A DNA stretch of 64,000 bases from Microcaldota archaeon (GTDB taxonomy: Archaea > Micrarchaeota > Micrarchaeia > Micrarchaeales > CABMGC01): positions 1 to 64,000 of the forward strand of contig JAJZOD010000002.1 in the NCBI GenBank assembly GCA_021852055.1. The letters are read 5' to 3'. The notes beneath the pieces are model-generated. The model searched no databases. It saw only the letters and a program-made list of their open reading frames with translations, and was not told the origin of the DNA. The translations under genes were made by a program, and so were the position numbers. This document shows, piece by piece, positions 59,179-63,082 of this stretch (position 1 is the first letter of the stretch; each line of letters opens with the position of its first letter).

Positions 59179-59283
59179 TGGACTCCGCGGGATTTTCAAA
59201 GCGCTGCAAAATATTGCAGAGCATGTTCGAACCCGCAACCTCCTGCATGCCATGCAGGCGCGCTACCGTTGCGCCAGGAGCCC
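59179..59283 (-). tRNA. tRNA-Ala (GGC) with 33-nt intron in the T-loop (position ~59/60)
   Basis: GGGCTCC/GGAGTCC acceptor, GCGC D-stem, CCTGC-ATGGCAT-GCAGG, GCGGG-TTCGAA[catgctctgcaatattttgcagcgctttgaaaa]T-CCCGC, A73; 72 nt mature. Confidence 0.9.
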
Positions 59284-59299: not shown

Positions 59300-59539
59300 T
59301 TATGCCGGTGATATAAAAAGTATATTTCCCCCTCTGAGAAGTATGATTCCAAGTTTTGCCTTAGTCGATCCTCCTTCTTCAAGCTCTTCAGCGCCTTCTA
59401 GCACAATGTTCATATGTACATCGAAAGACTGTACTTTGCCCCGTATATCAGTGCCGTTCTTCAGCCTTATCAGTACCTGTTGCCCTATCGCCTTGTTCAG
59501 GAGATCGAATGGGCGCTCGTGGTTTACCATAGCCATCAA
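59300..59539 (-). CDS. Sm-like (LSm) protein
   Basis: PFDLLNKAIGQQVLIRLKNGTDIRGKVQSFDVHMNIVLEGAEE…ILLRGGNILFI Sm1/Sm2. Confidence 0.95.
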   Translation of the reverse strand: MMAMVNHERPFDLLNKAIGQQVLIRLKNGTDIRGKVQSFDVHMNIVLEGAEELEEGGSTKAKLGIILLRGGNILFISPA

Positions 59540-62979: not shown

Positions 62980-63082
62980 TGCGGGGGGAGAGATTTGAAC
63001 TCTCGCAAGCACTAAAGCTACAGGAGATCCGAGCATAAAGCTCCTCGGTCCTGCGCATTTGACCAAGCTCTGCCACCCCCGC
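62980..63082 (-). tRNA. tRNA-Leu (GAG) with 16-nt intron at 37/38
   Basis: GCGGGGG/CCCCCGC acceptor, A73, long variable arm; CAGGA-CCGAGG[agctttatgctcggat]C-TCCTG with BHB: H CCGA/TCGG, bulges GGA and ATC. Confidence 0.9.

Follow-up and report, generated by a model that had tools for sequence, protein, structure and literature searches.

Does a tRNA gene whose T-loop is interrupted by 33 nucleotides still give rise to a working tRNA, or has it been broken? The question is raised by positions 59179-59283 of the window, the whole 64,000-nucleotide stretch of DNA analysed here, which belongs to a Micrarchaeota (ARMAN-type) MAG of the order Micrarchaeales (1.02 Mb, 14 contigs, ~90% complete). Nearly all relatives of the ribosomal protein S2 encoded in the window come from Micrarchaeota MAGs, Micrarchaeaceae and Mancarchaeum among them. 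We put the probability at about 95% that this is a functional tRNA-Ala(GGC) gene with a protein-spliced BHB intron at tRNA positions 59/60. All features of the locus described below lie on the minus strand.

Gene structure

The segment reads as a complete 72-nt tRNA-Ala(GGC) split by an intron of 33 nt, in the order GGGCTCC-TG-GCGC-AACGGTA-GCGC-G-CCTGC-ATGGCAT-GCAGG-AGGTT-GCGGG-TTCGAA-[33 nt]-T-CCCGC-GGAGTCC-A. The 5' exon (59226-59283, precursor positions 1-58) extends to tRNA position 59, and the intron (59193-59225, precursor positions 59-91) separates it from the 3' exon (59179-59192, precursor positions 92-105). The latter supplies T60, the 3' strands of the T and acceptor stems, and A73, at which the gene ends; CCA is not encoded. 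The acceptor stem GGGCTCC/GGAGTCC contains seven pairs, including G3:U70, the mark of alanine tRNAs. The D stem pairs GCGC with GCGC, the T stem pairs GCGGG with CCCGC, and the anticodon arm CCTGC-ATGGCAT-GCAGG presents the anticodon GGC (59249-59251). Once the 33 nt are taken out, the T-loop reads TTCGAAT and all four stems, with G3:U70, are complete. The 5' exon, and indeed the whole 72-nt spliced form, is 100% identical in some intron-less relatives.

The earlier note had claimed that a 72-nt tRNA-Ala folds here only without the 33 T-loop nucleotides, and both its coordinates and all of its arms prove exact. It had also warned that standard finders can miss such genes, as one does in this case. 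ARAGORN makes no call of the Ala-GGC gene at the settings used, nor with introns of 0-80 nt allowed on a test copy that ended one base before A73, and the Rfam tRNA model gives only a partial match (model positions 8-63, 29.6 bits against a cut-off of 29 bits).

A second intact Ala-GGC gene, which the earlier note named as evidence against its reading, was looked for in the ~90% complete genome and none was found. The other alanine tRNAs of the genome are TGC with an anticodon-loop intron, CGC with an intron, and a shortened CGC-like copy, the anticodons of the intron-bearing alanine genes having been assigned by reading the sequence. In archaea the anticodon GGC reads both GCC and GCU, so loss of tRNA-Ala(GGC) would be hard to bear, and the gene is probably essential.

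Conservation across the order

A search of 60 relatives and the genome itself yielded 57 Ala-GGC genes that can be read through the T-arm, among them one with an N gap in the 5' half (G020) and one, perhaps a paralogue, whose anticodon reads differently (G021). The intron lies exactly at 59/60 in 39 of these 57 same-order genes and is cleanly absent from 18. It is present in 25/35 genes of the same family and 14/22 of the sister family, including all seven from the same genus; one other genus is mixed, with six genes containing the intron and four lacking it among those read. Over the 39 orthologues the introns range from 13 to 48 nt and vary in sequence, while the flanking T-loop halves hardly change. 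The 18 empty orthologues read straight TTCRAA-T and so match the predicted spliced junction. An exact intron-spanning 50-mer has no match in the genome contigs searched, as expected from fast intron divergence.

Directly upstream of the tRNA (approximately 59301-59537) is a gene that we take, from recognition of its sequence, to encode an LSm (Sm-like) protein. Among 30 loci inspected, counting this one, 29 have a homologue, which in most cases immediately precedes the tRNA; they include loci with and without the intron, indicating that the Ala-GGC genes represent one orthologous locus. The insertion point shared by 39 of 57 genomes, together with precursor folding that is 4.3 sd better than that of shuffled sequences, places the gene and its intron far beyond chance.

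Outside the order, three genomes (G074, G080 and G161) have T-loop introns in Ala-GGC. For two of these (L157 and L158, in G074 and G080), the pairing seems to be one base off the order's pattern.

BHB fold and pairing

The fold suggested in the earlier note, a BHB-like helix TTCG/TGAA between bulges AAC and AAT, can form, and its pairing is conserved among relatives. The central 4-bp helix joins exon positions 54-57 (TTCG, 59228-59231) to TGAA within the intron (59195-59198). It is flanked by the 5' bulge AAC (59225-59227), with the predicted cut between AA and C at 59226/59225, and by the 3' bulge AAT (59192-59194), with the predicted cut between AA and T at 59193/59192. The potential to form two 3-nt bulges around 4 bp is exact here and kept in the relatives. 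Cutting between the second and third bulge bases was said to restore TTCGAAT, and the intron-less relatives read precisely this predicted junction, TTCRAATCCCGC.

The standard register sets exon positions 54-57 against the intron 4-mer that stops 2 nt short of the 3' cut. Across the 39 introns, 149 of 156 cells of the central helix are paired in this register and all four pairs form in 32/39, compared with 54-90 cells when the register is slid by 1-3 and 66 +/- 6 for shuffled introns. The inner helix of the intron forms 158 of 207 pairs, against 87 +/- 7 when shuffled. The partner of G57 (n = 19) is C in 12 cases, T in three, A in two and G in two; that of A57 (n = 36) is T in 33, G in three and C in none. 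Covariation between position 57 and its partner gives a Fisher p = 1e-7 over 55 introns, a value that comes from related sequences, is uncorrected for kinship and should not be read as an independent-sample p. Although the introns turn over in both sequence and length, they preserve the BHB pairing, and changes at position 57 are matched by compensatory ones in the intron.

Folding calculations add a mild yet genuine caveat to the standard BHB register. The minimum-energy fold predicted for this one sequence contains a 6-bp central helix (TTCGAA/TTTGAA) and moves the 5' bulge to CAU; in the isolated arm, the standard 4-bp register is computed to be ~3.5 kcal/mol less stable. A genuine intron might then be cut in the shifted register set by the longer helix, giving another junction, which we consider highly improbable. 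Such cutting would leave extra T-loop bases, and the thermodynamic model predicts the extended helix at p > 0.5 in only 5/55 genes, whereas the 4-bp pairing potential is near-universal and the intron-less orthologues show the expected junction. We note that in most relatives the short helix does not correspond to the computed optimum, with all four central pairs reaching a probability >0.5 in only 13/55 under the same model.

The insertion could also be imagined to stay in place after maturation and simply enlarge the T-loop of the tRNA. We reject this reading as highly improbable, because the insertion is free to vary in length (13-48 nt) and sequence between nearly constant T-loop halves, 18/57 orthologues have a plain 7-nt loop, the BHB signal for cutting is preserved and the genome encodes a broad-specificity endonuclease. 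It is just as improbable that the locus is a tRNA pseudogene broken by an insertion. The missing ARAGORN call is what such a relic might produce, but the arms and identity elements are all intact, this is the sole Ala-GGC gene found, and the insertion point is common to 39 genomes of the order, with BHB pairing kept through compensatory changes. A group I self-splicing intron is dismissed, as its catalytic core takes up a few hundred nt, the insertion is 33 nt long and there is no Rfam group I match within the window.

Splicing endonuclease and proposed pathway

The genome contains one splicing endonuclease gene, with two family matches in one frame. The product has 387 aa, of which residues 12-387 align with ARMAN-2 EndA (4fz2/9w2k, E = 4e-143). 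Compared with 4fz2, it keeps the catalytic triad (Y236, H251 and K282) as well as K161, the lysine of the specificity loop; the roles of these residues are described for the ARMAN-2 enzyme (PMC6379350). Judged by its sequence, this is a one-piece epsilon-type enzyme, and homologues occur in 60/61 genomes of the order, nearly always full length and in one frame. According to published reports, ARMAN-type epsilon endonucleases cleave non-canonical introns located at various positions of the tRNA (PMC4033280, PMC6379350, PMC12397907). An endonuclease matching cleavage outside the anticodon loop is thus encoded, with its breadth of cutting taken from the ARMAN-2 literature. This agrees with the earlier statement that T-arm introns are known from ARMAN-type archaea, the host being a Micrarchaeota with an epsilon-type endonuclease. 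The broad-specificity endonuclease most likely removes the Ala-GGC intron.

We infer transcription, cutting and ligation of the Ala-GGC precursor as follows. Exon positions 54-57 (TTCG) would pair with TGAA of the intron, leaving two 3-nt bulges. In both bulges the epsilon-type endonuclease would cut after the second base, and a putative RtcB-type tRNA ligase would then generate the 72-nt tRNA by joining TTCGAA to T60. Since the T-loop does not exist before splicing, its modification and the final folding of the tRNA would come afterwards. In tRNA-Ile(UAU) of Cyanidioschyzon merolae, a T-arm intron blocks Pus4 pseudouridylation of U55 (PMC9602550), which supports the possibility that T-loop modification waits for splicing. 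The two cases share a BHB intron in the T-loop, but the C. merolae tRNA is eukaryotic, of another isotype and interrupted by three introns (PMC9602550); by this analogy, splicing probably precedes T-loop modification here.

It is unlikely, in our estimate, that the 59/60 intron is more than a passive leftover, with selection or repeated gain keeping it at this one locus across the order. In that case splicing might, for example, be a required step that holds back T-loop modification and folding until the intron is gone.

Other introns of the genome

At least three other tRNAs of the genome read as having T-loop introns. That of Arg-TCT measures 16 nt and that of Ser-GGA 33 nt, both at 59/60, and Ser-GGA also has an insertion in the anticodon loop; the 13 nt in Leu-CAA are best placed at 58/59. 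An apparent D-loop intron interrupts Leu-TAA, and all four loci (L150, L151, L152 and L154) are on other contigs. In many relatives the match to the Arg genes stops at the T-loop, which suggests that these genes also carry T-loop introns. Comparison of the Ala-GGC intron with six other introns of the genome gives no clear similarity (local scores of 6-7), and hence no direct sign of recent transposition from those six.

Several further observations concern tRNA loci in this and related genomes. Within the window, a tRNA-Leu(GAG) gene (62980-63082, minus strand) has an apparent anticodon-loop intron of ~16 nt and is missed by ARAGORN without intron settings. Outside the window, AAACTTCTTGGGAAGAAGTTTTATCAAGAAG is located directly 3' of three alanine tRNA genes, Ala-TGC (L024:1615-1660), Ala-CGC (L156:303-345) and the shortened Ala copy (L153:252-275), and is diverged in one copy. 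It is nearly identical to the anticodon-loop intron within the Ala-TGC gene itself, and the occurrence of intron-like sequence outside a tRNA may be relevant to the mobility of these introns. In the relative G018, the T-loop introns of Ala-GGC and Ala-TGC (L062 and L107) sit at the same point and are identical at 19/25 bases; this likeness suggests that the isoacceptors have shared sequence, by copying of the intron or by gene conversion. Finally, a 5'-truncated tRNA-Glu(TTC) copy (L155, G000:C8:2916-2971) corresponds to the 3' portion of the intact gene; an integrated element may have left it behind as an attachment site.

Relation to known systems and significance

A review (Yoshihisa 2014, PMC4090602) lists position 59/60 among the sites of archaeal introns and describes non-canonical archaeal tRNA introns as especially abundant in Crenarchaeota and Nanoarchaeota. 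The Ala-GGC intron resembles the known 59/60 introns in its insertion point, short length, BHB junction and probable splicing by protein, and departs from the emphasis of that work in its host phylum, Micrarchaeota, in the alanine tRNA and in the occupation of one locus over an order. Multiple intron-containing tRNAs have been recorded in ARMAN-1 and ARMAN-2 (PMC4033280), which belong to the same phylum; the endonuclease of the present genome is a full-length homologue of ARMAN-2 EndA. With 59/60 already listed and ARMAN introns recorded, the Ala-GGC intron belongs to a known kind. It is an unusual but already known archaeal intron type, of which this example is unusually well supported.

What stands out is the scale, with one locus and one position showing high presence over an order, rapid sequence turnover and clean losses. 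A tRNA gene that looks essential here escapes a standard finder, which affects estimates of genome completeness and codon reading. The 55 introns at one tRNA position, together with clean empty sites and exon-intron covariation, form a resource suited to the study of how tRNA introns are gained, lost and maintained beside a broad-specificity endonuclease.
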